NCBI GenBank assembly: GCA_019096065.1
Contig: JAGUCH010000008.1
Span: 191,001 to 255,000 of the forward strand
Source of the DNA: Paracyclopina nana
Taxonomy: Eukaryota > Arthropoda > Copepoda > Cyclopoida > Cyclopettidae
Direction: 5' to 3'
DNA: 64,000 nt
Position 1 is the first letter of the stretch; each line of letters opens with the position of its first letter. The position numbers were made by a program, and so were the translations under genes. Positions 24,534 through 48,339 of this stretch are shown here, piece by piece. The notes beneath the pieces are model-generated. The model was not told the origin of the DNA. It saw nothing but the letters and a program-made list of their open reading frames with translations, and did not search any database.

Positions 24534-25243
24534 TGATGGACGACAAGTTCATCATGGCGTTATGATATGGAAATGGGATGACAGAAACAGAAGGAAGAAG
24601 AAGATGACTATTCAACGCAAAAATATCAACCATAACCTCGCAACCTCCCTGTTGAATTGCATCAGAAATATGGGGAGGAAGATGAAGCTACCTGGTGAAG
24701 GGAGGTTAGCCTTGGGAGGACAAGGCAGGATTGCGAGGTAGAAGGGAGTTCTTCGGGGGACCTCAGAGAAGCAACATGTCAAACCTTATAGCTAGAGGTT
24801 GACTGGTGCGAACTCTGCCAGCAGCTGGAACCAGAAGATCCTCACTAAGTTTGATGTGTGCAGCACTGAAGAAACAGCCGCAGAGAAGAAACTTTATTGT
24901 CATATATATTGTTTTGAGCTCTGATTAGAAGCAGCTGTTATATTGTGTTGTGCCAGCTAATGAATAGAAAATACCATCAGACCTTAATGAAGTATATTAG
25001 TGCTCAACTCATAGCGAGGTCCTGACCCCTGGAATGATCAGGGTGAAAGGGCGAGCCTTAACCACTGGTCAACTGTACATAAGCGTGCCGAGAGGTCCCT
25101 TGCCAGAAGCTGTGTACGTGAGGCTGCGGCCTCTGCATAGCGGCTCGTGAGACCTGGCAGCTCCGGTGTTGCGAATGAGTACTGGACTTGGGACCGATGC
25201 TTAACCTTCCTAGGTTCCTGAAGAGAGTACGAATTGTACACCA
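24534..25243 (+). repeat. 5' LTR (710 bp)
   Basis: Begins TGATGGACGACAAG and ends GAATTGTACACCA. It has the same length as 47630-48339, and I saw no difference between the two. Flanking sequence diverges at exactly these positions. A TATATAT sequence lies near 24902 as a possible core promoter. No AATAAA was seen; AATAGA near 24963 may substitute. Confidence 0.95.
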
Positions 25244-25246
25244 TTT

Positions 25247-25264
25247 TGGAGGCCCCGGAGGGAT
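25247..25264 (+). promoter_or_regulatory. Primer-binding site, tRNA-Thr-like
   Basis: Three bases after the LTR the sequence reads TGGAGGCCCCGGAGGGAT. Its first 11 bases are complementary to the 3' end of animal tRNA-Thr (ending CGGGGCCTCCA), and GGGAT matches further into the T arm. The position just after the LTR is where a minus-strand primer site should lie. The exact tRNA should be confirmed in the host. Confidence 0.65.
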
Positions 25265-26528
25265 AGAATGGCCACTCTCTCTCTAGTGGTTTGAAGACCA
25301 AAAGAAGTCCTGGAAAAAGATGGATGGATGCGTCCTGAAGTTACCCATTTGTGGCTGTGAATTGCCGAGGGCGAGGCTGCAATGGTTAGGCGGCACTTTA
25401 GTTGCGACTGGGGTGTGTCAATACTGTAAAAGTCCTGAGGCTGACGAGCCAAGAAGGCCATCCCGGTGGAAGTGTCTATGTGTAGTCTAGCGGTAAATGC
25501 AATGAAAAAGGCACACGTACATTTCGCACCGTTGCCACATTTAGAGGTTGTGCCTAAATAGACTATATCTATGAATGGACGGCCCTAGTTTGTGAAGAAA
25601 ATTCCATGGATCCTAGCCAGACAAAGTTCCTATGTTGTGTGGCTTGGTACTATCATTTCCTAAGGGAGAAGGCCCGTGGGGACGTCCTTGCTTGTCTTAA
25701 GCTGGAAAATGGGAGCCAAGCAGCCGGAAATGGTAGCCGGGTGGTGGCATGCGTGTCATTGCCCCTGTGGGCTTTAATGGGTCAATGGAGCTCAAGATGG
25801 GAGCCATTTTGGAAAGTTGAACCCGTTAGAAGCTGAAGCAGATGGAAGAACGAATAACCTGGAGCGTGTAGGGCGTGCATGGAGCTTGGGGTGGAAGCCA
25901 CCCTGGAAAGTGTATGGTGCTCTGGACCAGGGCTCTTCTGGGGCGCAAAGAGTGCGCGCCTGGGCGAGCCGTATACCTGTGTGTGTGTGTACCTCTTTCT
26001 CTTTCCATTCACTTTGTTGAGCTTGCTCAGCACAGTGGCGTTCAGGATTGGTAAAAGTGAATGCAACCCTTGTTTTTCAGCTTGTGGGCACTTAGGATTC
26101 TGTTGGACATCTGGTGCCTAGGTTTGGTAATATCTCTTCTGAGCAAGTGCTCATCTTTATTCTTGTGTGTGTGTGTGTATATTTGTGTGCGTGTGGGTCT
26201 TTGGTGAAGACTACTTAGGTAAAAGTGGTCCTAATCATTGAAATAAAAACTTGTCATAGTAATTGCAACTTTTTCTCCGAGTCACTTGACCGGCGTAAGT
26301 AGGAAGCTAACTGTGCTTTGAACAGTATTACGATTAAAAGCTTTAGCTTTTAATTGAGTGCGATTAGAGGCCTAGTGCTTTTAAGTCGTGCGACGTAGCT
26401 CTGTACGAAAAGTTAGCATTTGTGTTAACTTAGTACAAAAACCTAGTTGAGTCTTAGAGATTAACTTCTCTGACGAAACTAAAGGACAAGTTGAGTTAAA
26501 GAGAACCTCTCTTTAGCGAAACGGAAGG
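25265..26528 (+). other. Untranslated leader of the retroelement
   Basis: 1.26 kb between primer site and gag. It contains (GT)n runs near 25978 and 26166, an AATAAA at 26242 and several short upstream frames, none convincing. It presumably carries packaging signals and a splice donor, but neither can be pinpointed. Confidence 0.45.
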
Positions 26529-29015
26529 ATGTCTCGTGATTTGAAAAATGCACTTCGAGTGCACTTGGAAGTCACTGAGATTGCTTTGGGGAAACTGCTG
26601 AAACCTTGCACTCCTACTGGGGGAAGCAGGGAGGCAGTGAAGGACTTTCTATCGTGGGTCAAGTACCCAACGTCTACTGGTACCTTGAATGTCACCAAGA
26701 CAGAGGTGGTAAGGGCATGGAATGCTACACAAATTATTGTCCTAAACACCGTGGAGCCCCTTTCTCTTGATTTGCATATTATGAAAATCATAGAGCAAAT
26801 GCCCCAGGATGATCCTATTAGACAGATTATGGTGGTGGTCAGGTATGTCAATGCAATTGACCCTCCTGATCGCAATTCGGCTACGTGTGCTTTGCTCCTC
26901 TATTGTTTTGGTATGGAGTATTTGAATAAAGCATTCAGGGAGAAGAAAACGATCATTCTTAACAGGTCTACTGATGCTGGTGAAGAGGACTTTGCTAGCC
27001 CTAATGAGGAATTGGAGCCAATAATAACAGCTCTGAGTACCATGATTAATAAAGAGAAACTTACTAACCCAGCAACAGGATTAGATGCTGTTGCTGCTTT
27101 GTTTGGATTACGGCCTGACTTCTTCTTAGAACCTGATGAGGAAGAAGGACTAGTGATCTCCACTTCGTTTGCAGTGGAGGATCCGCCAAAGGATGCTAAT
27201 AAAAACAAGTCATTGGACCTGTCGGCCATCCCCAAGAAGGTTGGGTTCCAAGATGGCCAAAAATCAATCCTCACTTCTACTAAAATGACTTTGAAAGACT
27301 TGACTGTCCTAAATAATTCGGTGGTTCTGCCCCCTGGTAAGGTGGTAGAAACCACAGTAATGAAATTGTTGAAAGGAAAGACCTTGAGTCCATATGACTT
27401 GGGTGTGGTGCGAGCCCATTACACTGCGTTGCATGATGCGAGCACTGCTAATAAAATAATAGCTACTGCCCAAATGACTGCAAAGCACATGTTTGGGGCT
27501 GACCCAAATGATATTTACGAACGAAACCTTGAACGGGTTTTGAAATTAGCTGATGCTGCGTCCAAGGATTCATTAGTACCAGTGGCTGAGTCGGTCTACC
27601 ATGAAGATGCCCCACTGGATGAAAGGATTGAAGCTATCAATATTAATGAAATAATAGATGTTGAATCTGCTAGGCGAGTTGTGTTGCAAATGGTGGATCC
27701 GGAGTTGTCACCTGGAAAAAAGGTCATTGAGATGCAAAAACTATTTCAGGCCTTGCAGACCAGACCTGAGTTCACCCCATTGCAGCGCAAAATCTTTGTG
27801 GAATGTCACTTAAAAAGCCCTGAGGTGAGCTATGCTGTTCCCTCGTACTCCGAACATTCGAAAAGTGTGTATGATCCTAAATACAATAAGGATTATATAC
27901 CTTTGCCTCCTAATGGGCATCTGAAATTTGCCAATACTAGTGCCCTCAAGGAGATCAGAGCAAAGTACGCTAAGAGGTTCGATATGCAAAGTTCTTCTAA
28001 TACTGCTGATAGTGTGCTAGAATTCTTGCGCACAGTGAGCACACTGGCCCGCCGGTATGACTGGAGCCATGATGCTATAATTGAAGGTTTATGCGAAGGG
28101 GCTACTGCAAGCACAGCTGAGTATTTCAGAGGTGTGGCAAGTGAAGGCGTAGAGATCCTTTGGAATGACATCTATGCTTACACCAAGAATGTCCAGGAGG
28201 TAGATGAGTTTGTAAGAATACATAACATCATCAGGAACCCCACCCAGACTTTTGATCAATCCGTTAGGGAATTGTATAAACTCAGGTTGCGAATCCATAG
28301 AGACTCTATGGATGGAGATGGCAAAGCACATGCCATTTCTGAGACGATCACTGATGCACATGCCCTACTGAAAAGGCATTGGCCTCAACAATACCAAGGG
28401 TATATCAATATATACCATGAGCATCTGTTGAAACAAGGTACGCCCCTGAGGAGCATGGCCGCTCTATCGGAGATGGTCAAGGTAATTGGGGGCCATGTGG
28501 GGACTCACATACCGAAAACTGAGCGAGACAGAGGGGCTAGAGATGCTAGGCTACCTATGGCCCCAGCTGTTAAACACAAAGCCCATCTTGCTATGGTTGA
28601 AGTTGATGAGGACAATTTGGACAGTGCTAGCATGCTATCAGTGATGTCACATGTTAGCTCAAAGAGTGCCAAAATAATAAGTGCTCTGCATGGTGAGTTG
28701 GCTAGAAAGAATACAGAATTGGAACGCCAAACTGCTGAAGTAGCGGCATTAAAAGCCGAGACTGAGGCTGAGCGATCTAAAAGAATTGCAGCTACCTTTA
28801 ATATCGACATTAGTAAGCTGCCGGCGGGAAACCCATTTGAAACAGGTGGATGCCTGTTCTGCAATGGGACCCACTATGCCAAAAGTTGCGAGAACTATCC
28901 AGGTGTTTCACTGGATGAGTTAAAAAAGGATGGCACTGTGTGTATATCTTGTAAAGGATTACACAAGGTCATAAATGGATTACCGTGCTGGAAGTCGAGA
29001 CAAGCACGAAGGTAA
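26529..29015 (+). CDS. gag: Gag polyprotein, 828 aa
   Basis: An open frame from ATG (context AAGGATGTC) to TAA. The identity rests on position after the leader and on two zinc-knuckle-like motifs at the C-terminus: C-x2-C-x3-H-x4-C at residues 775-787 and C-x2-C-x3-H-x7-C from residue 805. The spacing of the pair recalls BEL/Pao Gag more than Ty3/Gypsy. The N-terminal 650 residues, presumably matrix and capsid, match no domain I can name; a charged, probably coiled-coil segment precedes the knuckles. At 828 aa it is long for a Gag. The stop codon overlaps the next ATG as TAATG. The structural role is inferred from position. Confidence 0.85.
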   Translation: MSRDLKNALRVHLEVTEIALGKLLKPCTPTGGSREAVKDFLSWVKYPTSTGTLNVTKTEVVRAWNATQIIVLNTVEPLSLDLHIMKIIEQMPQDDPIRQIMVVVRYVNAIDPPDRNSATCALLLYCFGMEYLNKAFREKKTIILNRSTDAGEEDFASPNEELEPIITALSTMINKEKLTNPATGLDAVAALFGLRPDFFLEPDEEEGLVISTSFAVEDPPKDANKNKSLDLSAIPKKVGFQDGQKSILTSTKMTLKDLTVLNNSVVLPPGKVVETTVMKLLKGKTLSPYDLGVVRAHYTALHDASTANKIIATAQMTAKHMFGADPNDIYERNLERVLKLADAASKDSLVPVAESVYHEDAPLDERIEAININEIIDVESARRVVLQMVDPELSPGKKVIEMQKLFQALQTRPEFTPLQRKIFVECHLKSPEVSYAVPSYSEHSKSVYDPKYNKDYIPLPPNGHLKFANTSALKEIRAKYAKRFDMQSSSNTADSVLEFLRTVSTLARRYDWSHDAIIEGLCEGATASTAEYFRGVASEGVEILWNDIYAYTKNVQEVDEFVRIHNIIRNPTQTFDQSVRELYKLRLRIHRDSMDGDGKAHAISETITDAHALLKRHWPQQYQGYINIYHEHLLKQGTPLRSMAALSEMVKVIGGHVGTHIPKTERDRGARDARLPMAPAVKHKAHLAMVEVDEDNLDSASMLSVMSHVSSKSAKIISALHGELARKNTELERQTAEVAALKAETEAERSKRIAATFNIDISKLPAGNPFETGGCLFCNGTHYAKSCENYPGVSLDELKKDGTVCISCKGLHKVINGLPCWKSRQARR

Positions 29016-30250
29016 TGTCTGAAATGGAAGAAGAACCTAAAACAGACACTACACTTGATGATTGTTATGTTCTGCCCTCATTTATGCGTGGAGAATATAA
29101 CAAAGAAGTAGGGAGAGTGTATTTTGATCATCTAAAAGCACTCTCAGAAAAGAGAAAACAGTGCGCAAAGAGGCCTGATGAAAAAACCTCAAGTGCCATT
29201 GTTTTGGCCATATCTGGTTCTCAGTACATGAATGAGACTAAAGATGGGTTAACCCCACCTAGGATGTGGAAAGGAATATTGTTATGGGTAATTGTGATGC
29301 TAGCTTTGGTGCTGTGGCTGAACAATTATGACCAAGTCGTGCCTGTAGCGATAGTATACATTATAATAATGGTATGCTGGTGTATGTGCTGGTTTTTTCC
29401 AGACACATCCCACACGTATGATGTACCTGTACATGTGGCGAAGCTAACTGCTGGCTGCATTGAAACTCCGGATGAAAATGTACAGCCAGAAGGGATCATT
29501 AAAGATGATGACACGCTAAGTGTATTTTCCTTAAAACTACACAATGTGTGTGAAAGGTACTACATACCTGTCCAAATTACAGGCCAGATAAGACTTCATG
29601 CCTTATTTGACAGTGGAGCAATGGTTCAAATCATATCTCGCACACTAGTAAGGTTAGTTGAAGAAAAATTGGGTTACTCATTACCGCGAGTTCAAACCAA
29701 TTATCTTATTAAGAATTTCAATGGGGAAGAATTTCCCAGCACTGAAGGTGTGGTTCTGCAAGTCGCCTTTAACAATAGAGTACTGATTAGACAAGCAGTG
29801 TTCTTAGTCTCTGACTGTGAGACCCTGCTTATGATTGGGAATTCGTTATTAGTAGATAACAACATACGCTTGACTAGTAGGGATGGAAGTCATTTTATTG
29901 ATTTCCCAGGGCGAATAAAATATAAAAAGATTCCCCTAGTCCTTACTAAGGAAGCGTTTTACCCTGTAGCTATAAATGAAAGTATTACTGTGCTACCTGG
30001 AAGGGAAGTGACAGTTAATGCTAGCTTTCCGCATGAGATACCTTTGGTAGCTGAGCCCATTCTTGGTGATTCAGACGCCGAAGTGGACCATGATGAAGTT
30101 AAAGTAAAGCCAGAAAGTAAAAGCGTTTACTCTAGCTTTCATGATAAGTGTTTGGAATTTAGTCCGGATGAGGATTATACCAGCGCTACTGCTGAAGGAT
30201 GTGTTACTTCTGTGACTCCGGAAGGGCACTTTTCCAGTGCAGATAGGTAA
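29015..30250 (+). CDS. pro: Aspartic protease (retropepsin) with two N-terminal membrane helices
   Basis: The ATG at 29015 shares its A with the gag stop (TAATG), suggesting termination-reinitiation. A -1 frameshift is possible too, because this frame is open upstream to 28955. The protein has 411 residues. The catalytic motif is FDSGA with Asp at residue 199, and LLMIGNSLL further on fits the retropepsin pattern before the second hydrophobic turn. Unexpectedly, residues of about 87-104 and 108-129 form two strongly hydrophobic segments, WVIVMLALVLWL and VAIVYIIIMVCWCMCWFF. The protease may therefore be anchored in a membrane before or during particle maturation. The C-terminus is acidic and overlaps the next ORF by about 35 nt. 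Confidence 0.8.
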   Translation: MSEMEEEPKTDTTLDDCYVLPSFMRGEYNKEVGRVYFDHLKALSEKRKQCAKRPDEKTSSAIVLAISGSQYMNETKDGLTPPRMWKGILLWVIVMLALVLWLNNYDQVVPVAIVYIIIMVCWCMCWFFPDTSHTYDVPVHVAKLTAGCIETPDENVQPEGIIKDDDTLSVFSLKLHNVCERYYIPVQITGQIRLHALFDSGAMVQIISRTLVRLVEEKLGYSLPRVQTNYLIKNFNGEEFPSTEGVVLQVAFNNRVLIRQAVFLVSDCETLLMIGNSLLVDNNIRLTSRDGSHFIDFPGRIKYKKIPLVLTKEAFYPVAINESITVLPGREVTVNASFPHEIPLVAEPILGDSDAEVDHDEVKVKPESKSVYSSFHDKCLEFSPDEDYTSATAEGCVTSVTPEGHFSSADR

Positions 30251-32672
30251 TAATTCTGACGAGCCCATTTACATTGAGGCTCATTCTATCATAGGAAAGG
30301 CTAATATTGTTAAGAAACAACGCTATAAGCCTACCCAAATAGTGCATAAGTTAAACCTCAGTTTAAAGTCTTTGAACCATATAGTGGACACTTGCTATTG
30401 TGAGTTTATTGACACGCATATTTTGGTGCAATTTGTTGACATAAATGGATTAGCTTTCACTGACATGCACACCTTTAATGAACAAGTTCACATAAAGGGT
30501 AATGTTAAACAAAAGCTAACCAGACATTGGAACCATGTTTTCATTGCCTCTAACCAATCTGATGGTTTTGAGGAAATCACTGATGACTTATTGATAGAGT
30601 TTGTCAGTAAATGGAACTGGAATAGCCTACCATGGGTAGTTGTTGTCCCTAGTGACAAATTATTGTCTGGGGAACAAAAGCGGATTATATTAAAGCTCAA
30701 CTCTATAGTTGAAAAACTAAGTGTAGTTTGGGTAAAATACAAAAACGTTCATGATAAATGTAGGACTATAGCTCTCACTCCTATAGAGAATTACCTGGCG
30801 GGTATGGAGAGAGTGGTGCTAACTATCATGGTTCATAGTTATGATTGCTTTCCTGTTGCTTATCAAAGAAATGGAAATGATAAATATTACGAATTCACTA
30901 TCTTGGGTGCTCCCACCGTCATGTATAAGATAGCAAATGATATAGAACTAATGATCCATGTGCCTTGCCCCAAATCAAGGGATGTTGGTTACATGGCTAC
31001 CTTAGTTTACAATATATTTGGCCACTTACGTTACAAATGTGTGGCTGATAATATATGGGTGAGAACCTTAATGGATGGTGATGTGTCAGTAGAAGAACCT
31101 GTGTGTTTAGCAGTGTCTTCTGCATTGTTATTACTATCGGGCTTGCCTATGTATCCACATGAATCTACATTTGAGGATATAAAGACAAAGTTTGGTGGTT
31201 TTATACCTTTTGAGTTTAAGCCAGAAAATTGTGCTTGTGCTCTTTGTCTAGCTAACCGTGCTGGGTCTAAGATAGTGTGTAAAAGTTACACTACAATATA
31301 TGAAGGCCCTATAGCTGATCTTTGTGTCAGGCAAACGGTAATTCATAACCCATCTGAATTGGACCTAGTGTCCGCTTCTTTAGAAATAACGCAAGACGAG
31401 GCAAAGAATCAGAGGCTGTATGAAGAGGTTTATAACCTTTTATTGCAGTTCCCTAGTGAATTTGACCCACATCGAGTTCTAAATGGAGTAGCTGGCTACA
31501 CCTTTCCATTGGAACTTGACACCGTCTTAAAGTTTGACCTGGACCACATACCAGTGGAAGTCAGAGAAGACTACAGGAATATATTGATAGAATATAAGGA
31601 CATCTTCTCTGATGATCCGAGATCTTTTAGGTTATGGAATGTGGACCCCGTAAAGTTTCAATTGAAGGACAATAAACCCCTGGTACCGAAGGTGTTTAAC
31701 ATGTCTGAATATGAAACCACTCAAGTGGATAGAAAGATATCATTGATGTTATCTTCTGGTCTAATTGAGATAGTAGATAAGTCTTTGAATAGGTACTCTG
31801 CTTGTCCTTGCTTCTTGACATCAAGGCCAAACGATGAAAAGTTACCTATGAAACAACGTAAACCTAGGTTATTAGTGGACCTGACGTCCTTTAATAAGAA
31901 CCTAATTTTCACGCCATCTGAACATATTGTTCCACCTATTCCTACATTATTAGGGATGCTTTCGAACTCATGTTTGATGTCATCTTTTGATGTCACCTCA
32001 GGATATGACAATTTACCTGTCGATTCTGACAGTGCAGATATGTGCTGCCTAGCTGTGACGTCACCACGGTCTAGGTATAGAGGCCTTTATTTGAAAAGTA
32101 AGGCTATATTGCAGGGTACGGCCTTGGCTGTGAGAGAATTTTCATCTTTATTAATTCAGGCAATTAATCCTGAAATATTACCTTTCACTTGTGTCTATGT
32201 AGACGATTTATTGGTCTCTTGCAAGAATCCGGACAAACCGAAGCCGGCAACTCTAGACGATTATAAGAGGCATTTAGGTGATCTCAGGAAACTGTTTGAC
32301 AGTTTAAGGGAACTAAATGCATTATTACAAATCAAAAAGACTCAATTAGGGGTCAAGGAAGCTACAGTCCTTGGACACCTCATAAAAATTGATGAGCATG
32401 GAGTTATGACGATGCAGATGCCTGATAAATACAGGACTGCGTTTGATGACTTCCCGATGCCTTCAACAAAGAAGCAATTACAAAAGTTCATTGGTATGAC
32501 CAACTGGTTAAGCCAATATTGTCCTAACATGGCCACTTACACGGCACCTCTATTGGATGTAATGGCAACTAAACAGGGGAAAACAGGAAGTTTAACTTCT
32601 CCCTTTTCAAGAAAAATGCTTTTACAAGGTTATAGAGGAAATAAAGACAGGAATGTCCTTGGCCTTGCCTAA
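30237..32672 (+). CDS. pol: Reverse transcriptase ORF
   Basis: The frame is open from 30216 and has no early ATG, so it is probably made by a +1 frameshift from the protease frame, which ends AGG TAA at 30245-30250. Numbering from 30237, residues 1-400 are unassigned, with a CACALC cluster near 340. The fingers-palm region follows, with the first catalytic Asp in SFDVTSGYD (residue 585) and YVDD at 654-657. The sequence beyond it (LGHLIKIDEHGV, KFIGMTNWLSQYCPNMA) is typical of Ty3/Gypsy connection regions. At the 3' end the homologous frame appears to change twice within about 32590-32630, so RT and RNase H are split over two ORFs. This is either real damage, programmed shifting or base-calling error. 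Confidence 0.88.
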   Translation: MQIGNNSDEPIYIEAHSIIGKANIVKKQRYKPTQIVHKLNLSLKSLNHIVDTCYCEFIDTHILVQFVDINGLAFTDMHTFNEQVHIKGNVKQKLTRHWNHVFIASNQSDGFEEITDDLLIEFVSKWNWNSLPWVVVVPSDKLLSGEQKRIILKLNSIVEKLSVVWVKYKNVHDKCRTIALTPIENYLAGMERVVLTIMVHSYDCFPVAYQRNGNDKYYEFTILGAPTVMYKIANDIELMIHVPCPKSRDVGYMATLVYNIFGHLRYKCVADNIWVRTLMDGDVSVEEPVCLAVSSALLLLSGLPMYPHESTFEDIKTKFGGFIPFEFKPENCACALCLANRAGSKIVCKSYTTIYEGPIADLCVRQTVIHNPSELDLVSASLEITQDEAKNQRLYEEVYNLLLQFPSEFDPHRVLNGVAGYTFPLELDTVLKFDLDHIPVEVREDYRNILIEYKDIFSDDPRSFRLWNVDPVKFQLKDNKPLVPKVFNMSEYETTQVDRKISLMLSSGLIEIVDKSLNRYSACPCFLTSRPNDEKLPMKQRKPRLLVDLTSFNKNLIFTPSEHIVPPIPTLLGMLSNSCLMSSFDVTSGYDNLPVDSDSADMCCLAVTSPRSRYRGLYLKSKAILQGTALAVREFSSLLIQAINPEILPFTCVYVDDLLVSCKNPDKPKPATLDDYKRHLGDLRKLFDSLRELNALLQIKKTQLGVKEATVLGHLIKIDEHGVMTMQMPDKYRTAFDDFPMPSTKKQLQKFIGMTNWLSQYCPNMATYTAPLLDVMATKQGKTGSLTSPFSRKMLLQGYRGNKDRNVLGLA

Positions 32673-35600
32673 CTTCAAGGAAGCGTATTTAGTAGTAGAC
32701 TCGGGTGTAATAAGTACCTCAGCTCTACTTATGGAAATTGATGCCAATGGGAAGGCAGTGTGTGTTGGGGCTCACAGTGCTAGATTCCCATTGTCAGTGT
32801 GCTTGTCTTACCACTCGTTTCAGCGAGAAGCATTAGGTGTATTAATGATGATACACCACTATAAAAGTATACTCTTTGCGTATGAGCGGTTAGTGATAGT
32901 AACTGATTGTCTATCGATTGCCAGTATACTGGCTAGCTCATTTACTGGTAAAGATGCTTTTACGCACAGACTTGCAGCGAGAATATACTCCTTGCCAGTA
33001 GCGTGGAAAATACGTGCTGTGCCAAGAACTGAGATTGAAATTGTTGATATATTATTGAATAAGTATCATCAAACTGAGGGAAATACAGTGTTCTTTGCAC
33101 CGTATTCCATTCAATCGCAAATTACGAAGGACATTTATGCTGGTGTTTATCCACTCCCGGAGGAAATTTCCTCTAAAGTAATAACCACGCAGGAACTTTT
33201 GACACATGTATTTGACACTTTGGTTAATTCAGGTACTATGTCAAAGTCTTTACTACAAAAAAGATTACAATGTCTGAATGACAAGTGGGTTGAACTAATA
33301 GGTTCCTCTCCACCTTTTGTTCATGATGACACTTCCACTATTCTTCATGCGCGTCATAAGGATGATGATGAGGTTGACAGGTTAACTGAGGTTTCGCATT
33401 CATTTGAAGGTGAAGCTAACCCTGAATCCCCTGTCTTTGACATAGAAAACAATGTTATTGTTGACGCAATTACTGTTAAGCGTAAAATATCGGTACATTT
33501 ACCAGGAATTACACGCAACCTTCTCATACGTTTGCAACAAAACTGTGAGGAAACTCAAAAACTAGTGAACATGTTAGTTCTCACTCCTGAACACGAGGTA
33601 CCTACCAGTATTGCGGCCAGGTACCGTGTCATTGATTGTGCACTTCTTGTTATTAGAAAGAATGTAAAGTTACCATTTACGAAGGCCACCAACACGAAAG
33701 TGTATATGAGCATGCAAAATTGTGTTTACTTGATGGCCTGCATTCACCTTTTACATAACCATTTAGGAAGTAAGAAGGTGAATACCTTGTTTACACAGTC
33801 TATGTTCTCAACTTATTCTGCTAGAATAAGTAGAATAATTGTAGGTGCGTGCATGCATTGTGCACTGTATAGACAAGCAAATACAAGGTTTGTGGGTAAG
33901 GGCAGATTCCGTATTCCGGATAAGCCCTTTGACCTTGTTATGATTGACCTTGCTTACTTTGATCAAACTTTAGTCAAAGGAAAGGATGCCAAAGTATGCC
34001 TAGTTATTATCGATGTTTATTCGAAAATGATAATAGCTAAACCTTTGTTAAATTCCACTTACAGGGAGGTAGCTACTGCTATGGAAGAAGTAACCTCCTT
34101 GTTTGGTGTGCCTAAAACCTTATTGGCTGATAATGGAGCGCAGCTTACTAGTAACCATGCCCTCCAGCGCTTGATTGACAAGTATAAAATACAGGAATTG
34201 TGCCAATACAGAACACTGTCACCAAACAAACATTCAAATGCTTATGCTGAGAACAGTGTTCGTGTTTTGAGGAATGCTTTAATACTAAACTCCAAGTCAT
34301 ATAAGCGGCCTATGAGTGAAGTATTTAAACTGTCTGTATATGCCATAAATAACCGCCCACTAACTTATTTATCATATACTGACCCGAATGGAGTCAAAGT
34401 AATACCTACTCCATTCTCTCTATTCTTTGACAAAATGCCAGGTTACCACCTTGGGCGTGATGTCTTTGAAATATTGAGCGAAAGTGAGGACATCATACAT
34501 AAAGCTGAATGGCAGGATGTCATGAGGAAGTATGATGAGGAAGAGCAAAGACGTTTTGAACTAATGAAAGCCACTGAAAGGCCTTCGTTTAAACCTGAAA
34601 TTGGTTCATTAGTCTTAGTTATTAAACATCCTGTAAATAAGCATGGGTACAAATTCATGCAGGATCTATTTGAGGTGATTGATGTGGGGTCCCACTCCAC
34701 TGTGGCAGTAAAACCTTATTTGCATGATGGACTAACTCGTGAAGTCAGTCTGGATCATGTAAAGTTGTACCGGTTTCATGAGTTATATAAGTTCTTACCT
34801 GAAAAGATAACTCATTTGCTTATGCGGCCTTACACTCCTGATGAGATGTTACAACGTCTTTCCAGGAATGAAATGCTTAAATTCTTGGAGGAGGATGAGC
34901 CTGAAGTAAATGAGTATGCATTGCGAAATCGAGTGTCACAAAGTATTGCCGCTCGAGATGAAGCGAAAAGTGAATGGGCTTCCAACGTAACAGAAGAACT
35001 TATTACTGCTACTTCTTCGCTAGGAACCTCTACCATAAAGGATCACCAAACCTTGAAACATTCTGGATCTATACTGCGGAAGAAGGCTACTGATTTGTTT
35101 AAGCCCTCTGATGTGCGTCGCATCCAGGAGGAAAATCGTAGAATTGTTAAGCAGCAATGGGACAATTATGTACCTAAACCACCGCCTAATGAAGGTGTGA
35201 CTGATTCTGCTGATTCTGCTCATATGAAGGAAGGTTCGTACCTTTCTCCGAATGAACAGAAGGCTGATAAACTCATTGACCAGTTACTCGAATCTAGTAG
35301 CAAAACATATGAAACTACCCTCTACGAGGAGCTTAAGTCTCTCCAATCGGAAGATTTACCCACTTTTGAAGACTTGGCTGCAAAAGGGAAGGTATTCCTC
35401 GAAGTACCGAAATCCACTCGACCACGCAGCCCCAGTCAAATAAGTACACCTACTAATATGACTGGGACACTATTGAATGATGATGTCAGTCCAGTTCCTC
35501 GTGCTTTTAGAGGTCGAAGGTCACCGCGCCCCAGCCCCAAAAGCCCAGAACAGGAAGAAGCTGACATCTCAAAAGTAGTGAGCGAGGCCTCGTTGCTTAT

Positions 35601-38356: not shown

Positions 38357-38697
38357 AAGACTGCCAAGTTTTGGAAGGATTTTCCTCCCAAAACCTGAGC
38401 TTCTTGGGTAGGGGGGGTACCCAGAGCCAGAGCACGCACAAGCCAGAGAGCGAGTGCGCGCTGTCACTAAAAATTCCAAAAAAAAAATGGAGGCGTCCTT
38501 AAAACAGACGCGACCACTTCTAGTTTGAGGCGGTTTTACCCCTTTGTTAAAGCAAGCTGAAGTCTAGACCGAAACAGCCCAAGAATTCCAAGGGAACAGT
38601 CTGCCCTAAAACTATAACAATGCACACCAATAGGAAAAACGTAGCGCTTATATTATAACATCCTGGCCCGCGTCAGGGTGCAATTACATAAGGGGTG

Positions 38698-38713
38698 TGG
38701 CGCCACCTAGAGA
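38698..38713 (-). promoter_or_regulatory. CTCF-like site 1
   Basis: The minus strand reads TCTCTAGGTGGCGCCA, matching the AGRKGGCGC core of bilaterian CTCF sites. It is one of four within 1.8 kb. Confidence 0.35.
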
Positions 38714-39092
38714 CCAAGGGGCCCGCGCCCATTTGAAAACGTTTTTGCTAAATTAGCAGATAATTTTGCAAAATAAGCAGACTGCAAACTAAAACATTGT
38801 AGTTTTGCTCGGGAAAAAGATATCCAAAAGCGACTGGATTTGTCAAAATTCTGCCAAATTCTAATAAATGCTGAGTAGCCTTTGCAGAACTTTCCCTACA
38901 AGATATGTACACGTATGGAAATTTGAGCATTAAGGTAAACTAAGCTAAAGTTCGTGCTCGGTCAGCTGAACAAGCTTCTATATAAAAAAGCTGACTTATA
39001 TCAAAAAATCTGTCTATGATATTTTGGGTGCAGTGACCACTGAAACCATTAGTAAAAGTGTGCTGGCTGCAACGTATGTGACGTAGCCGTAG

Positions 39093-39107
39093 CCTCCAGG
39101 GGGCGCG
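39093..39107 (+). promoter_or_regulatory. CTCF-like site 2
   Basis: CCTCCAGGGGGCGCG differs from the classic CCACCAGGGGGCGC consensus at one core position. It is the best of the four candidates. Confidence 0.45.
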
Positions 39108-39656
39108 ACTATCCCCATATAACTGTGGCAAGGATGATGCATATTTTATGCAACAACCTAGTACCTGAAACAGTACATCATTGGTGCCGTTATGCATGGC
39201 TTAATAAGTTGACCAGACCAATACTAAGTTTGGCAAGGAGTTTATAGAAAACATCCGGACTTGATTATGTATTCAAAGATAGATATCATGATGCTTGGTC
39301 ATGAATTGAGCTAGAACCTACTGGAAACCATACTTTATTATCTTTTTGTTCCTCGTCTGGTTCTATGGTTTTGCCCTGGGACCAGATTGAGTTGCAAAGG
39401 TGACTGATGCCGCAGAGTATGCGCCTTATAAAAAGGCCGATAATTGCTCTAGTAGCTCTTGCTTTTCCGTCCTATAACCGAGCTATCTGTACTGGTACTC
39501 AGTCACAAATAAGCGCACAATTTTTATGTGGCCCCATTTTGGGCCTTTAATGATAACTAGACAAAGCTATAAGGTAAAGCTTTACAATGAAAACGATAAA
39601 CAGTGAGTGCTCGTTTACCATTACATGGAAACAAATAAATAGTACTCAAACAGGTT

Positions 39657-39851
39657 ATGTGTCTGTGCCTAAAGTTGGCCTTTAGCGAGCCAGAAGTTTT
39701 GGGTTGGATGAGGGACAATGACCCTTCTGAACAGACAATGAACTGCCATGAGTTGAGTAATGGTTATTGCTTGGCAAAAAACATTATTGAACGTCTTCCC
39801 CGCTGTGTGGTTTTGCTAGAAGATGAAAATAATGGCAGACACTGCCCATAA
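39657..39851 (+). CDS. Possible small ORF, 64 aa
   Basis: A Cys-rich frame from ATG to TAA. A TATAAGG lies at 39568 and a CAGT initiator at 39601, 34 bp apart, similar to the promoters of the other accessory genes but slightly long. A five-codon upstream ORF (ATG at 39625) intervenes. No domain or signal peptide is recognised and no polyadenylation signal follows closely. It may well be spurious. Confidence 0.22.
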   Translation: MCLCLKLAFSEPEVLGWMRDNDPSEQTMNCHELSNGYCLAKNIIERLPRCVVLLEDENNGRHCP

Positions 39852-39921
39852 AAAGCAATGGTACGGCAGACAGTAAATGGGTAAAACGTTACAAACGTTG
39901 CGGTTAATAGTACTGAGGGTT

Positions 39922-39937
39922 GCGCCAGAGGGCGCTC
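39922..39937 (+). promoter_or_regulatory. CTCF-like site 3
   Basis: GCGCCAGAGGGCGCTC contains AGAGGGCGC, a match to the CTCF core; the upstream part is weak. Confidence 0.3.
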
Positions 39938-40449
39938 CATGACTCGTTGACTATGCTGCACCTGAAAATTACTGCCTGCCTGCGAAGCGAAACCCGAAAT
40001 AATAGCTTTGCAGGTATGTGCTTGGGGCTGTAATACATAGCCTTCTTTACTGTAGCTGCAGGTGGCTTAAAAATGGCTATTCATGCTACAAGTATGAGAA
40101 TGTTCAATGTAAATGAGAAAATGGTTTGATGGTTGCTAAACAAAAATGTACGAACAAACCATTACTTTATGACAACTTTGTGCTTGTCTGCTTCTGGGGT
40201 TCTGTCCCCAGGAGTAGGTACCGTGCAGTAGCATTCAGTGGTCTGTCATGTAGCAGGGCTCAAAAGCGAGCCCTATCATTAAAATATAAGATATGAGGGC
40301 ATTGACTTGGAAAAGTTCTGAGCGTGCTGATGTGAAAAAGAGCTCATGATAATAACCGGTGCTTCTTATGCGCCAATGAGAATGCAAATATCATTTTAGC
40401 ACTCAGTCTAAGAACGAAACGTTATGAATATAAATTACCGCTGTGTTAG

Positions 40450-40464
40450 TGCTAGGGGGCGCCA
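40450..40464 (+). promoter_or_regulatory. CTCF-like site 4
   Basis: TGCTAGGGGGCGCCA contains the CTAGGGGGCGC core. Confidence 0.4.
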
Positions 40465-41353
40465 CGGGTGGTAATCGTGAATCATTAATTCCACCAGTAA
40501 TGTCATGCCATTATAGCGTAGAGGCATGAGAACCAAGGAGCAGTGCTTTAATGTGGACTTATTATTAATGTGCATCGAGAACCTTGCTGAAGTTTTGAAA
40601 AGTGTCGAGGCTAATATGTACTGCGTCTTTTACCAAAAGAGAAAATAAGACTGATGGAAAGATGGTACTGCAGTGTGTGCTAAACAGACCATATTTTTGT
40701 TCACTTTTTGTTCCTAGTCTCAGCTTGGGTTTTGCCCCTTGCTTGAGCTAAGGTGCGTAAGGCATCTGGGATCAGAAGAATAAAGCGATGCTCCAGGGGC
40801 TAGTCCCTTGGTTTATGGGCTTGAACTTTCTTCTTTTCTCTGCTTATGACACCTGATTTCGGATGCCTCCACGCACCCGTATTTTTGTTGGGCGATAGCG
40901 CCCCTTAATATAGCTAATATGGAAAGTAATCTGTTCGTCGCACCGTACAGAATTTTATGTGCAAGTGCTGAACCGAGTACGAGAAGGTTATTGTTATTAC
41001 CTGCTCACGTGAGGTGACGAGATAAGACCTTAACCTCTGATTTTCTGCTATGGCTTTCTACCTGTGGAGCTAATTATAATGTGCGTGACGAACGCTGTAA
41101 ATGTAGCTTTTCGCTGAGATGCGTGAAAAAGTGCGAATTAGCTATATACGCACATGAGAATATTGTAGTCGGCAAGGCTCAAGTTATGCCATGCTAACGT
41201 AAATATGATATGATAAGATGAGGCAGGCAAAGCAATTCGGCACTTGAAGAAGCCGTAGTTTTTGCTGAGGCCCCGACGATGATAAGTTGCTCAGCTCAGA
41301 AAACGCGAAATGATTTGCGAAAACTCAGATATCAGAAGTAAGGTGGAACTGGC

Positions 41354-42268: not shown

Positions 42269-42427
42269 GGATCTGTCAATGCTTATGTAAATAAAAACAA
42301 TAACATAGTGCTAAAACAGACCGCATAAAATGAATAATTTCCACCCGAAAAGTTGCACTTGACGAGTGGGATGACTAAGTGTAAGACTATTGGGCCCCGC
42401 GAGGTCTGATGAGGTCGCCATGGATCA

Positions 42428-43438
42428 CTAATTGGTGGGCTCTGCTACAGTGCTTGACAATGCGTGGGTGGCCTCGTTTGGTAGTTCTTGGATCACTGCC
42501 CCAGTGGTCCTCGGGACATTGACGTAGAACTGGCTCCGGTTGCGGCGCCTTTTGTTCCTTCTCCGCTTAGAGCGTTGGCTTTCATCTGTTTGCCCCTGTA
42601 AAAAAAGGGCACCTGATGAGGATCTAAGGTACACAAAACGCATGGAGCAGACATCTTCATTGAGCTTTGGTCCCATTAAGGAAACGAACAATTACTTACT
42701 TGTCCCAGTGGCCGCAGCACATCATAGATGGGCTCGTTCAATGATGGGCGTGAAAAGGTGGAGACATGGTAAGGGGGCGTGCCTCCACGTACCAAGATCA
42801 TGTTATCAAAATTGGACAATGGCAATGAAGGCAACGGTCTCCTACTCATAGTTTCGTAAAGTTCCGGGAAAGAGGGGTTTGCCAATGGCAAGGCCAGAGG
42901 CTCCAGCTCAACCTGGTCAATGACCTCTGCGTTCTCAACGCAGGCCCGGCATAGACAGCACCGCTTGCACCTCTTGTACAGGCGGTACAAGAAGCATGTG
43001 ACCATGATTAGAAGAAGCTACGATGGCGAGGAAAAGTATTAATGACTAGCCTTGCTTAAATTCAATGGTCATAATTGGACTCACCAAAATGATCACTAGG
43101 GCCGCTACCAGGCCAACCCAATCCTGAACGCTGTACTGATCGAATTCGAAGAAACTTCGGGATGACGGTACAGAGGGGTCGATCTCCGCGGTATCCTTTG
43201 GAACAGACTCCATAGAGGTTGCAACCTCAGGGAGAGGACTAGTAGAGGCCGTGGTAACCCTAGTTGGGGGTGCTGCAGTCGCCATTGTTGAAGTTCTTGT
43301 CCAAGACTCGGGCAAGGTCCACCTAGTGGTGGTTGCAAGGGTCTTTGCAGTGGGACGAACTGTCGTTGGCAATGTGCTAGTCATTGCTGTTGTAGTTGTA
43401 GCCGCCGTAGTGGTGGTGGGCAACTGGAGGAAACCCAT
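42428..43438 (-). CDS. Mucin-like single-pass membrane protein encoded antisense in three exons, 279 aa
   Basis: Minus-strand exons are 43438-43085, 43017-42700 and 42595-42428 (118, 106 and 55 codons plus stop). All junctions are phase 0, with donors GTGAGTCC and GTAAGTAA and acceptors ATCGTAG and TTTTTTACAG. Residues 1-100 are Thr/Pro/Ala/Ser-rich, likely O-glycosylated. A membrane helix at about 105-130 spans the first splice junction, and its hydrophobic run continues smoothly across it, which strongly supports the splice. A basic Cys-rich stop-transfer follows (RLYKRCKRCCLCRAC), then a tail with tyrosine motifs (LYETM, IYDVL) and a basic cluster near 234-245. There is no cleaved signal peptide, so it may be type III. 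Function unknown; a surface or trafficking protein is likely. It is convergent with pol and divergent from the 43784 ORF. Confidence 0.75.
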
Positions 43439-43504
43439 GACTTATGTATATAAACAACTGTAAAGTTGGGCTATTATAAGTTCAAGGGTTGATATGCTGC
43501 TGAA

Positions 43505-43746: not shown

Positions 43747-43783
43747 TATAAAAGAAGGGGTGGAAATGAGCAGGTTCCAGTCT
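43747..43783 (+). promoter_or_regulatory. TATA/CAGT core promoter of the 526-aa ORF
   Basis: TATAAAAG at 43747-43754 and CCAGTC with its A at 43779, 32 bp apart. It lies about 210 bp from the antisense promoter, so the two genes share a divergent control region. Confidence 0.6.
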
Positions 43784-45364
43784 ATGATGAACACTGCTGC
43801 CGATACCACCCTCCCCAGTCTTGCCAAACTTGGTGAAGCTTTGCCTGAAAACGAGATGGACCCGAAAAAGAACGGTGAAGTCCGAAAGGTTGACGTAGTC
43901 ATGATCCCGCAACTGGAGGATCATGAACATGAGGCTCTACTTATGGAAGAGGTACCTGAGGGTGTGGCCCCTGGTACCATTGATCAGGATGCATACCGGG
44001 CTAATGCCCAGTTTTGGGACGAAGAAAGTGCTGGATTAGACCAGATGGCGCTCTTTGCTGATACCCAAACTGGTGATGAGGCTGACGAGGCTGAGGGGCC
44101 TCCCTTACTTGTGAGGGGAGGTGAGGCTTCAAGGAAGGACTCTGGTGACCAGGTTATCCACGAGAATGTAGAACATGAAGTTGCTACTGTGACTCGGGCT
44201 CCAAATGCTAGAGTTATGACTGAAAAAATGGATCAGGATGATGAAGGACTAGCACCTACTCACAATGTTGAGGTAGCCCGTGCTGACCCAAGATTGATGA
44301 GGCCTTGCATAGTTGAGCTCCCCCTTGGGGATGAAGCTGTGAGGCTGAGGTATCCTGTGGCGTATCAGGACTTGATCCGCCCCCCATTTCCGGACACCGT
44401 CAAGACGTATAACCGTCAAGCAATGGCAGTACGAGAATTGGTCCAGAGGGGCTTTAACGAGGCCATGTTAAAAGTGGCTATCAGTAATACTCCGATGGTT
44501 AGCCGTGAGAGAGCCTTTGATATCACGGTACGCTGCAATGGCGAGGTTCTGGAGCAACCGGACTTCCGCCGCCCATTAAAGGTGTGTAACTTTGAGACTT
44601 TCGAGTTACAATTGAAGCCAGTTAGCGAGGGAGGACCGCTACCAGATTTTGTGGTGGTCTTCTTGATGTTGGGGACGCTCCCGGTCTTCAATTTGCCAAA
44701 GGAGGCTGCGTTCAATGACACCTATCATCGACGCACTAATGTCAGGGATTGGGCTGCGATTCAAAGTCCCTCTGCACTTAGCTACGCAGTCTACAATGTC
44801 CAAGGAAGAGACGGTGCCAGGGTACCTGTTGTGGTGTCCAAGCATCTGGCTAAACATGGCGTTGTTCAATTAAAGCCAACTCTGGATAGGTCGTTTGCCA
44901 ATGCCAGGCTTTTTATGGATGTGAGCTCACCTTACTTCCAATTGCACGTTGGAACCCCGTCTTGCCTTATGCATGAGGTTGCTCAAGCCCCACGAAGAAT
45001 CGATATCAAAGTTGACATGACTGCCATGCTACCTCGCGAGGTAGGCAGGTTTGTGGAAAGAGTAGAGCGCTCTAACCCCCAAGCGATGCGTTTCATCTCT
45101 GGGGCCCGCTCACTGAAGGTAGCTGAAATACAGGATCGGCCACAGAAAAACCGTCGAGGTACCCGCACTTACTTGGAGGCGGCGACCAATCAATCTGCTG
45201 GGGCCATGTCTATAAAACAAGGAGCTCCAAAAGCGAAACGTACCAAGGGTGACAAGGAAAAGGCTCGATTGGGCCAACTAATTGTAGCCAAGATGGAGAC
45301 GCTATCATCAACTGACTTGAAGTCCTTTGGAGCGGCGATAAATGAGTTTGTTGACCAATTCTAA
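43784..45364 (+). CDS. Unknown accessory protein, 526 aa
   Basis: The open frame runs upstream to 43727, with an ATG at 43766. I place the start at 43784 because the predicted transcription start (43779) lies between the two, which leaves a very short leader; 43766 would give 532 aa. Residues 1-170 are acidic and look disordered. The middle (about 190-440) looks globular, with beta-type alternation and few cysteines. The C-terminus (about 445-505) is basic, with RRGTR and KAKRTKGDKEKAR. No signal peptide, membrane segment or known family was recognised. An acidic head and basic tail would suit a nucleoprotein or matrix-type protein, but that is a guess. GC content and codon use are richer in GC than in gag-pol, suggesting separate acquisition. 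Confidence 0.75.
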   Translation: MMNTAADTTLPSLAKLGEALPENEMDPKKNGEVRKVDVVMIPQLEDHEHEALLMEEVPEGVAPGTIDQDAYRANAQFWDEESAGLDQMALFADTQTGDEADEAEGPPLLVRGGEASRKDSGDQVIHENVEHEVATVTRAPNARVMTEKMDQDDEGLAPTHNVEVARADPRLMRPCIVELPLGDEAVRLRYPVAYQDLIRPPFPDTVKTYNRQAMAVRELVQRGFNEAMLKVAISNTPMVSRERAFDITVRCNGEVLEQPDFRRPLKVCNFETFELQLKPVSEGGPLPDFVVVFLMLGTLPVFNLPKEAAFNDTYHRRTNVRDWAAIQSPSALSYAVYNVQGRDGARVPVVVSKHLAKHGVVQLKPTLDRSFANARLFMDVSSPYFQLHVGTPSCLMHEVAQAPRRIDIKVDMTAMLPREVGRFVERVERSNPQAMRFISGARSLKVAEIQDRPQKNRRGTRTYLEAATNQSAGAMSIKQGAPKAKRTKGDKEKARLGQLIVAKMETLSSTDLKSFGAAINEFVDQF

Positions 45365-45606: not shown

Positions 45607-45631
45607 TTACTTGACATTCGCTGAGTTAATA

Positions 45632-47515
45632 ATGTTGGTGCTTGTGCTTTTAACTTTGTCCGTGCCCATAATCAACAGCCGGGCTGCATCTAACGCACTA
45701 TTAGATGGACCGGTATGTCACAAAGGGCATGCCTTGGTCCCTGTGCGCATGGTTTATCATCCTAAGCCTGATAAAAAGGCTATGATCATTGACACTGGTA
45801 ATTTCCGCCAGCTCCTTGAAAAGACCCGTGACGCGGTGAATATGCTTGAGGATGGGGTGGGACGATTAACGGAGGAGGTTCCTACAACTCAGACTCCCAC
45901 TGATGTAGTGACCTACCAAGATAGAGAATATGTGGGTGTTAAGGCTCTCCCAACGAAATTGGATGAGGAGTGTAAAACACTAGGACTTGATTTTAACTCG
46001 TTTATTCTGGAAAACCAAGTTGACATGGACAGAACATTAGAACTTTTGACTCAAGCAGCAGATTCTAATACTGCGACTACCTTCACGTTTTGCTTGAAGT
46101 TTCGTTTCATTGGGAACTCTCCAGTTTCACTGGATGGACGTGTTCAGTTTGATAGAATTCCATGGAAAGAAGTTCCTAAAGCTTCCATCAAACCTGGGTT
46201 CCCATGCATAACAGGGAAGTTTACTGATAAAAAACTAGTAGAGGCCTCGTCACATCTTTTTGACGGCACAAGCCCAGTGGGAACTATCTGTGTACGTCAT
46301 AAATATGCCATTAATCATAAAGGCCGGATCAGCCATAAATTGTCCAAGGCCAAAAGTATGGTCAACCATGCTTTGACCGCTCTTAATAACCTTGCTGAAG
46401 CTGGTCGCACTACAAAATTTACTGAAGGAATGATGAAGAAAGTCAAACTTCTGGTCATTCCGGATAATATTAGTTTGGCAGTACACATGCTACGAAAGGT
46501 TAGTGACGCATTTGTAAAACTCGGCTACTTGCCCGGAGATTACAAGGAAGTGCTAGCGATGGTGGAACAAATAGTAACCTTTGCTAGAAACATTAGGCAG
46601 GTTGACAAGCGATTCAGTCTGCCCCGAGTTAACATAGCTAGTGATTTGGAGAACCAAGCTGTGACAAATAGTGTGTATGATCCACTAACTAATACTGAAG
46701 TGGTGGGCGATAGTGTATCTCAGGGAATGATGAGTTCCCACAGTCTGGATCCTGAACCTGAAGTGACATTTAAAGTAGTGTCTAGAAGTGTTCATGGACA
46801 AGTGTTAGCAGACACATTCTTAACAAAATATAAAGATATGGCTTATGTCACTAAGGATCTACCTATTTATGGAGATTGCTATATGCATGATGCCAATGTC
46901 ACTGTGTGTGGTACTAAGCATGTTACAATACCATACGGAGCCCAACAGTGTGCCAAGTTATTATTGGGCCTAGCTTTGGGTGACCCTTTTTCCGAGTGTA
47001 ACATGGTCCCACTGGCTGATAATACATTGGAAGAAGTGGCTTGCCAGGAGTACAGAGGGTTCCTGAACGTCATCAAGGACACTTCTATAAACAGGACTTG
47101 CTTAAATGACTTTAAAAATTCCATAACTTTAGTGCCTGGCTCGTACCAAGTACTGAGCCATTGCCTGGTCACGATGGGAAGTTATAGTACTGGGTATGAA
47201 GACTCCCCATGGGAAAGTGACATTTTGAAGTTCTTTACAAAGTTTCCAGAGGAAGAGCCATTGGGTTTGTTTGACCATTGGAAAATCATACTAATTATAA
47301 GCACACTTTCAGGCTTTATTATAATTTTGTTAGTCTGCATCCTAGTGTGGAAACGTCGGGCACTAATCCGCAGATGCTGTGGAGAGCCTGATTATGTTGA
47401 ACCAAGAACTGGGCGCCGGCGAGTTAATGCCAGGCGCCTTGACAATGAAAAGGACCCCATGGAAATGGGACTGATGGGTGTAAAAAACAAACTTGGAGCT
47501 GCTACGTTAGTATAA
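45632..47515 (+). CDS. env: Env-like type I membrane glycoprotein, 627 aa
   Basis: Starts with a signal peptide (MLVLVLLTLSVPIINSRA), has a long ectodomain with paired cysteines concentrated in the last third and sequons such as NVT and NRT, then one membrane helix at about 552-573 and a 54-residue basic tail containing RRCC and several Arg-rich groups. It is the last gene and ends 114 bp before the 3' LTR, the position of env in retroviruses. No furin site or fusion peptide could be confidently placed, and no known glycoprotein family was recognised, so 'Env' rests on topology and position. It may allow virus-like spread; that is inferred. The frame is intact in this copy. Base composition is like pol rather than the 41-45 kb cassette. 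Confidence 0.8.
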   Translation: MLVLVLLTLSVPIINSRAASNALLDGPVCHKGHALVPVRMVYHPKPDKKAMIIDTGNFRQLLEKTRDAVNMLEDGVGRLTEEVPTTQTPTDVVTYQDREYVGVKALPTKLDEECKTLGLDFNSFILENQVDMDRTLELLTQAADSNTATTFTFCLKFRFIGNSPVSLDGRVQFDRIPWKEVPKASIKPGFPCITGKFTDKKLVEASSHLFDGTSPVGTICVRHKYAINHKGRISHKLSKAKSMVNHALTALNNLAEAGRTTKFTEGMMKKVKLLVIPDNISLAVHMLRKVSDAFVKLGYLPGDYKEVLAMVEQIVTFARNIRQVDKRFSLPRVNIASDLENQAVTNSVYDPLTNTEVVGDSVSQGMMSSHSLDPEPEVTFKVVSRSVHGQVLADTFLTKYKDMAYVTKDLPIYGDCYMHDANVTVCGTKHVTIPYGAQQCAKLLLGLALGDPFSECNMVPLADNTLEEVACQEYRGFLNVIKDTSINRTCLNDFKNSITLVPGSYQVLSHCLVTMGSYSTGYEDSPWESDILKFFTKFPEEEPLGLFDHWKIILIISTLSGFIIILLVCILVWKRRALIRRCCGEPDYVEPRTGRRRVNARRLDNEKDPMEMGLMGVKNKLGAATLV

Positions 47516-47600
47516 AGCTAAAGTTTTGTTGTATCACTTATCATTTACTATTGAGCAATCTAGTCACCTTTTTTCATATTTTAGTTCATAAAATGATGAC

Positions 47601-47629
47601 AAAAGCTGAAAAAGTTTGGGCCGGGGTAA
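47601..47629 (+). promoter_or_regulatory. Candidate polypurine tract
   Basis: A-rich then G-rich sequence (AAAAGCTGAAAAAG, then CCGGGG) directly before the 3' LTR. Pyrimidines interrupt it, so it is a weak tract placed by position only. Confidence 0.3.
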
Positions 47630-48339
47630 TGATGGACGACAAGTTCATCATGGCGTTATGATATGGAAATGGGATGACAGAAACAGAAGGAAGAAGAAGA
47701 TGACTATTCAACGCAAAAATATCAACCATAACCTCGCAACCTCCCTGTTGAATTGCATCAGAAATATGGGGAGGAAGATGAAGCTACCTGGTGAAGGGAG
47801 GTTAGCCTTGGGAGGACAAGGCAGGATTGCGAGGTAGAAGGGAGTTCTTCGGGGGACCTCAGAGAAGCAACATGTCAAACCTTATAGCTAGAGGTTGACT
47901 GGTGCGAACTCTGCCAGCAGCTGGAACCAGAAGATCCTCACTAAGTTTGATGTGTGCAGCACTGAAGAAACAGCCGCAGAGAAGAAACTTTATTGTCATA
48001 TATATTGTTTTGAGCTCTGATTAGAAGCAGCTGTTATATTGTGTTGTGCCAGCTAATGAATAGAAAATACCATCAGACCTTAATGAAGTATATTAGTGCT
48101 CAACTCATAGCGAGGTCCTGACCCCTGGAATGATCAGGGTGAAAGGGCGAGCCTTAACCACTGGTCAACTGTACATAAGCGTGCCGAGAGGTCCCTTGCC
48201 AGAAGCTGTGTACGTGAGGCTGCGGCCTCTGCATAGCGGCTCGTGAGACCTGGCAGCTCCGGTGTTGCGAATGAGTACTGGACTTGGGACCGATGCTTAA
48301 CCTTCCTAGGTTCCTGAAGAGAGTACGAATTGTACACCA
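47630..48339 (+). repeat. 3' LTR (710 bp)
   Basis: Same length and, by eye, same sequence as 24534-25243. The next four bases are the AGAT target duplication. Confidence 0.95.

Follow-up and report, generated by a model that had tools for sequence, protein, structure and literature searches.

Errantiviruses such as gypsy are Ty3/Gypsy elements that carry an envelope (Env) gene and generate 4-bp target-site duplications; they are much shorter than the element described here, and we know of none with an antisense cassette. The HBZ gene of human T-cell leukaemia virus 1 (HTLV-1) is a spliced antisense gene of a retrovirus; it is a single gene and starts in the 3′ long terminal repeat (LTR). Ogre elements contain an extra open reading frame (ORF) upstream of gag. 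We analysed a 64,000-nucleotide stretch of the genome of the copepod Paracyclopina nana (contig C8, JAGUCH010000008.1, positions 191001–255000; "the window"), in which a retroelement occupies positions 24534–48339. Its genes are arranged in the order gag, pro-pol, spacer, as2, as1, ORF5 and Env-like gene, with as2 and as1 in antisense orientation. The element resembles errantiviruses in its Env-like gene and 4-bp duplications, although the Env-like protein has no match to their Env. Compared with HTLV-1, it contains two internal multi-exon antisense genes, which are unrelated to HBZ in sequence type.

The Burro elements of planarians are also Gypsy-type giants, longer than 20 kb, with extra genes and reported Env homology (PMC6431247). 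Burro encodes a huge polyprotein with env located in frame between gag and pol (PMC6431247), whereas the window element has separate gag and pro-pol genes and a downstream Env-like gene. The available portion of that paper mentions no antisense genes in Burro (the word "antisense" occurs 0 times), whereas the window element has two. The Ogre elements of plants reach a total length of up to 25 kb, similar to that of the window element, but their size is mostly due to very long LTRs, and they contain one or two extra ORFs (PMC6431247). The LTR of the window element is only 710 bp long, and no long sense frame was found upstream of its gag. The Retand elements of plants share with the window element a long region between pol and the 3′ LTR with conserved antisense ORFs (PMC11963269). 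However, the Retand region measures 2.9–6.6 kb, no Env was found in it, and its antisense ORFs mostly encode a TRP28 domain, whereas the antisense exons of the window match no Pfam family. The word "intron" occurs 0 times in the available portion of PMC11963269, whereas the antisense genes of the window are split. Giant foamy-like endogenous retroviruses of fish are likewise large animal elements, described as more conventional in structure (PMC6431247). The accessible portions of the open-licence literature searched described no LTR element of an animal in which split antisense genes are conserved.

Searches of the 92-Mb, 10-contig host genome identified five diverged families of the element, here called A (which includes the window copy) to E. 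Wnt matches at three loci of this genome mark the host as a metazoan. The sequence-only reading of the window had listed two antisense genes; both are present and are composed of multiple exons rather than being plain ORFs. That they are split, conserved and, in the case of as1, exchanged as a block is the stronger finding of this analysis. The broader reading, for which the arguments appear to us evenly balanced, is that of an "ambisense" giant retrovirus lineage. Two complete, self-promoted, multi-intron antisense genes would have been kept in it over long evolution, one under a conserved stop-within-splice-site switch and the other encoding a mucin-like surface protein that passes from virus to virus as a preassembled unit.

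Split antisense genes as2 and as1

The gene as2 is located on the minus strand between positions 42043 and 41354 and comprises exon 1 (42043–42017), exon 2 (41945–41784), exon 3 (41727–41501) and a 3′ untranslated region (UTR) exon that begins at 41441. A TATA-like box (42093–42087) and an AATAAA signal (41359–41354) were identified by eye. The splice sites are conserved in an alignment of 18 loci, fifteen of which belong to families A and B and three to family C. The start ATG is present in 17 loci, the GT donor of intron 1 and both the GT and AG of intron 2 in all 18, the GT and AG of intron 3 in 17, and AATAAA in the aligned column in 14, with a shifted AATAAA in family C. The acceptor of intron 1 is aligned in 12 loci, and families B and C have an AG a few bases off. 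The introns are kept in families A, B and C and at the one family-E locus read. The exons of the window and family B are 81, 78, 100 and 87% identical, and the introns 57, 59 and 48%; the corresponding values for family C are 63, 49, 94 and 75%, and 42, 39 and 45%. The protein of exon 3, searched against the host genome, matched 79 rows, seven of which, at 45–51% identity, represent family E. Six of these seven have an Env-like gene of family E about 4.3 kb away on the opposite strand.

Exon 3 of as2 opens with an 18-base piece ending in TAG (41712–41710), which is both an in-frame stop codon and a second acceptor-like site that closes a pyrimidine-rich stretch. The TAG and its acceptor are present in all 18 loci that hold the region, which is missing from two of the 20 loci inspected. 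The frame past the TAG (41709–41503 in the window) extends for 69 codons in family A and 67–68 in family C. The next stop straddles the donor of the 3′ UTR intron and therefore stays a stop whether the RNA is spliced or unspliced. The arrangement is alike at the family-E locus L088, where the opening piece is 12 bases long.

The gene as1, on the minus strand between 43438 and 42428, consists of exon 1 (43438–43085), exon 2 (43017–42700) and exon 3 (42595–42428), with a TATA-like box at 43540–43533 and AATAAA at 42268–42263, both found by eye. It encodes 279 residues with a threonine-rich outer part (40% serine and threonine over the first 90 residues), a single membrane segment that intron 1 divides, and a tail carrying the motifs YETM and YDVL and a basic patch. 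The intron positions match in families A, B and C. The as1 of family C is about 23% identical to that of the window; in family D, the membrane-segment intron was seen by eye only. In a comparison of the window with locus L022 in 300-base bins, the identity is 0.49–0.59 across positions 42300–43499 and 0.87–1.00 on either side. The corresponding numbers of synonymous changes per site (dS) are 2.9 for as1, 0.27 for ORF5 and 0.14 for Env. The alternative type of as1 is present in L022, L025 and L027, and L028 looks mosaic. This pattern is read as the exchange of as1 between copies as a one-gene block. A search of the host genome with exon 2 of as1 gave 16 rows, all within or beside family A and B copies, and found no free host gene.

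The element and its copies

The 23.8-kb retroelement proposed from sequence alone was confirmed in its overall construction. The LTRs (24534–25243 and 47630–48339, plus strand) are 710 bp long, begin with TG and end with CA, and differ at 0 positions, and the duplication AGAT flanks them on both sides (24530–24533 and 48340–48343). Exact alignment identified the LTRs as the pair of one insertion; two independent LTR insertions are ruled out by the identical LTRs, the single AGAT duplication and the like spacing in sister copies. An 18-base primer-binding site (25247–25264, plus strand) begins three bases past the 5′ LTR and exactly matches the 3′ end of a host tRNA, identified by ARAGORN as tRNA-Thr(AGT). 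In the host, the corresponding tRNA 3′ pattern has one exact match and a further eight that differ at a single base; both of the matches read, out of these nine, are tRNA-Thr(AGT). A purine-rich, polypurine tract-like stretch (47618–47629, plus strand) adjoins the 3′ LTR and has at most one base change across 15 LTR pairs.

Gag (26529–29015, plus strand) is an open frame without a Pfam match, called from its position and a CCHC-like motif. Pro-pol (29015–36495, plus strand) encodes two hydrophobic segments, protease, reverse transcriptase (RT), RNase H and integrase. RT and integrase score above the Pfam cut-offs, and the matches of protease and RNase H are below them. Gag-pro-pol is thus present, as had been noted, but the pol of the window copy is broken into three frames, with breaks near 30216–30250 and 32596–32672; four of the eleven family-A RT matches have pro-pol intact as one frame of 2513 residues. 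The spacer (36496–41353) is without long conserved frames and is about 906 bp shorter than that of the sister copy L067, at approximately 40256. Families A and B have short spacer pieces in common, and the spacers of A and C do not match. ORF5 (43766–45364, plus strand) encodes 532 residues, and the Env-like gene occupies positions 45632–47515 of the plus strand. Gag, ORF5, the Env-like gene, as1 and as2 are each open in frame in the window copy. An Rfam scan of the window found nothing.

A search of the host genome with the LTR gave 47 matches, from which 15 LTR pairs were built, 12 belonging to family A, including the window copy, and three to family B. All 15 pairs have 4-bp duplications. 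Ten pairs have no LTR differences, three have one and two have two, the maximum; one difference counted in a family-B copy may be a boundary artefact. In 13 pairs, 22.7–24.1 kb separate the LTR starts; the distances in the other two are 33.3 and 36.5 kb, probably reflecting later insertions. Among seven single LTR loci read, four have matching 4-bp flanks. One family-C copy has identical 925-bp LTRs and a total length of 23,394 bp, and one family-D copy has 597-bp LTRs (99.8% identical) and a length of 18.9 kb. Young insertions are present in all four families whose LTRs were read. In an RT search, 55 of 397 candidates were scored, so that the counts are lower bounds: at least 11 rows belong to family A (97–100% identity), at least one to B (89%), at least 40 to C (62–72%) and at least three to D (54%). 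The family-D Env-like query identified seven D loci and, at 29–31% identity, six loci of family E, which shares as2 and Env with the other families.

The cassette is present in all 15 LTR-paired copies of families A and B; its absence from every other copy had been named in the sequence-only reading as an outcome that would refute it. ORF5 is found in all 15 and is uninterrupted from its start in 14; the Env-like gene is likewise found in all 15 and is free of stops and splits in eight. All three exons of as1 are present in each of the 15 copies, with exon 1 partial in two, as is exon 2 of as2. Families C and D have the gene order of the window, with homologues of ORF5 and Env at 22–46% identity. 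Identity to the window falls in parallel from B through C to D in RT (89, 70–71 and 54%), ORF5 (71–72, 41–46 and 22%) and the Env-like gene (65–70, 44–45 and 26%), the pattern predicted for a cassette that moved together with pol. Since the gene order is common to C and D, and as2 and Env extend to E, the cassette is a long-standing component of the lineage.

The measured cassette genes are under purifying selection. Ratios of nonsynonymous to synonymous change (dN/dS), calculated by the Nei–Gojobori method, are 0.062–0.117 for ORF5 and, within family A, 0.122–0.193 for Env. For as1 they are 0.20–0.28 in six diverged pairs (dS 0.6–1.7), 0.17–0.58 in four near-identical pairs, and 0.14–0.35 where dS is about 2.9 and close to saturation. 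Gag has a dN/dS of 0.075 (window and L079), and 0.159 in a 135-codon piece of a broken family-B gag; RT has 0.090 within A and about 0.033 between A and B. Silent sites are saturated between the window and families C and D.

Further observations concern the surroundings of the copies. L033 (C6:6509000–6516840) is another A/B-like copy, broken and located beside another copy, with its Env-like frame open. At C8:6673342–6675853, C-type ORF5 and Env-like pieces directly follow an A copy, which suggests nested or neighbouring insertions. An ORF with two PPPPSY motifs (L037:680–1156) was rejected as a family-D gene; it lies outside the D 3′ LTR and belongs to the flank. CTGGC/GCCAG repeats occur at the start of contig C1 (L083) and the end of C4 (L085) and are possibly telomere-near. 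Within the window, a 188-residue open frame without a Pfam match (22852–23418) lies upstream of the element, and two adjoining copies of an approximately 1-kb stretch, 87–93% alike in pieces, directly follow it (48959–51292). An inverted repeat at 1823–5205 has 1550-nt arms that are 99% complementary and 283 nt apart, with further inverted and tandem copies to about 8304. Long satellite-like arrays of 17-base and 20-base units occupy 18483–20269 and 58304–59525.

Nature and expression of the lineage

The paired LTRs, the target duplications and the tRNA-Thr primer site identify the window element as an LTR retroelement. Its RT is closest to Ty3 among solved structures (E 6e-15; retroviral Gag-Pol, E 0.0097), and the order of RT, RNase H and integrase is that of Ty3/Gypsy (Metaviridae-like) elements. 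A protein search with RT identified nine relatives, and these nearest ones are 22–34% identical, which supports a separate lineage. Searches of PHROGs gave two weak-to-modest transposase matches to integrase, with other rows at chance level, and phage records and viral contigs contained no relative. The RT tree of 13 rows united A, B and C beside a Ciona fragment (91/87), with a stem measuring 1.96 changes per column; its branches are long, and just two of its ten forks are firm.

The Env-like protein has an N-terminal hydrophobic segment, glycosylation sites, a C-terminal membrane segment and 11 cysteines that are invariant in eight aligned rows, and its gene is located before the 3′ LTR. No relatives were identified among 7,993 scored candidates for the Env-like protein and 7,997 for ORF5, drawn from 5.8 billion proteins; neither was found in IMG/VR viral contigs or had a significant Pfam match. 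Against the PDB, profile searches found no match to ORF5 and, for the Env-like protein, two rows that look like chance (best E 0.017), and single-sequence fold predictions had a mean predicted local distance difference test score of 35.8 for ORF5 and 40.4 for the Env-like protein. The two proteins thus represent two added protein families without relatives in the databases searched. Because they match nothing searched, and the antisense exons have no Pfam family, the "large-virus-like gene content" of the sequence-only reading is unsupported. Its proposal of a new giant retrovirus lineage fared better: a giant, Env-bearing and separate lineage is supported. The Env-like gene and the large number of diverged families with recent insertions lead us to infer an infectious past, as required of a strict endogenous retrovirus. 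We are confident, short of certainty, that the window element is a recently inserted and damaged member of a giant lineage of Env-bearing endogenous retroviruses of Ty3/Gypsy type.

Based on the structure of the element, a mode of expression can be proposed. The sense RNA would be packaged and copied from the tRNA-Thr primer. Gag stop and pro-pol start overlap in the sequence TAATG (29013–29017, plus strand), which is present at all six junctions read in families A, B and C, five identified by pattern and that of C by eye. Some non-LTR retrotransposons are known to stop and restart translation at overlaps of this kind, and ribosomes finishing gag may restart at UAAUG to produce pro-pol. A −1 frameshift is disfavoured, since the two frames of family C share only about seven bases with the stop counted in, and TAATG is retained. 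The two hydrophobic segments ahead of the protease, seen by eye from the translation in family A (29015–29500) and by hydropathy in family C (L077:792–1301), are unusual for Gypsy elements. ORF5 and Env would be produced from spliced sense RNAs. The genes as2 and as1 would have internal promoters of their own on the opposite strand, and the host would splice their transcripts. Depending on which of two 3′ splice sites is used, as2 probably yields either a short product that stops at the TAG or a longer one that is weakly bound to membranes; as1 probably encodes a surface protein that changes rapidly and encounters host factors.

Two of these steps have alternatives. Pro-pol may be translated from its own spliced RNA, as foamy viruses have a separate pol RNA; the five-base overlap kept in families A, B and C would be needless in that case, and we consider this route unlikely. 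Slightly less probable still is that ribosomes read through the conserved as2 TAG, with which the protein-type conservation of the downstream frame in A, C and E would agree. Removal through the second acceptor is better suited to the position of the TAG at the end of an acceptor-like stretch and to the length of the skipped piece, which, whether 18 bases in A, B and C or 12 in E, maintains the frame.

The lineage as a whole may also be explained differently. The Env-like and ORF5 proteins could be otherwise employed, for example as internal membrane or particle proteins of a giant LTR retrotransposon that never left the cell. The Env-like protein has no sequence match to known envelopes, and no RX[KR]R furin-type site was found in it; however, its layout, the place of its gene before the 3′ LTR, and the presence in one genome of five diverged families, of which all four with LTRs read include young insertions, make an intracellular life doubtful. 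We regard it as highly improbable that the cassette was acquired a single time and has since persisted as functionless cargo. Broken cassette genes in several copies and the unconserved A–C spacer would be in keeping with this, but ORF5, Env and as1 all have dN/dS values well below 1, and homologues are kept in order in diverged families.

Several points weigh against the favoured explanation of a giant Env-bearing retrovirus lineage with spliced antisense genes. All of its transcripts and their splicing are predictions from the genomic sequence. The as2 long form is broken in the three family-B copies, by an in-frame stop in two and a deletion in one, as2 was not found in the one family-D copy read, and it lies outside the set of genes used for dN/dS (gag, RT, ORF5, Env and as1). 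In as1, intron divergence does not clearly exceed that of the exons, so that the case for this gene rests on frames, dN/dS and splice sites. The Env-like gene is interrupted in seven of the 15 A and B copies, and its protein is Env by layout, without a sequence or usable fold match. Family E was read at one 1.6-kb locus (L088), with LTRs and pol outside that reading.

The element points to a simple way in which split genes may be maintained in a retroelement with an RNA stage. With as1 and as2 on the opposite strand, the introns and poly(A) signals of both would go unseen in the sense genome RNA, and the split genes could pass through the RNA stage; antisense placement may be how they survive it. 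Dozens of young copies of up to about 24,000 bases are present in the 92-Mb genome of P. nana, which makes expression, splice choice, stop and restart, and gene exchange directly testable.
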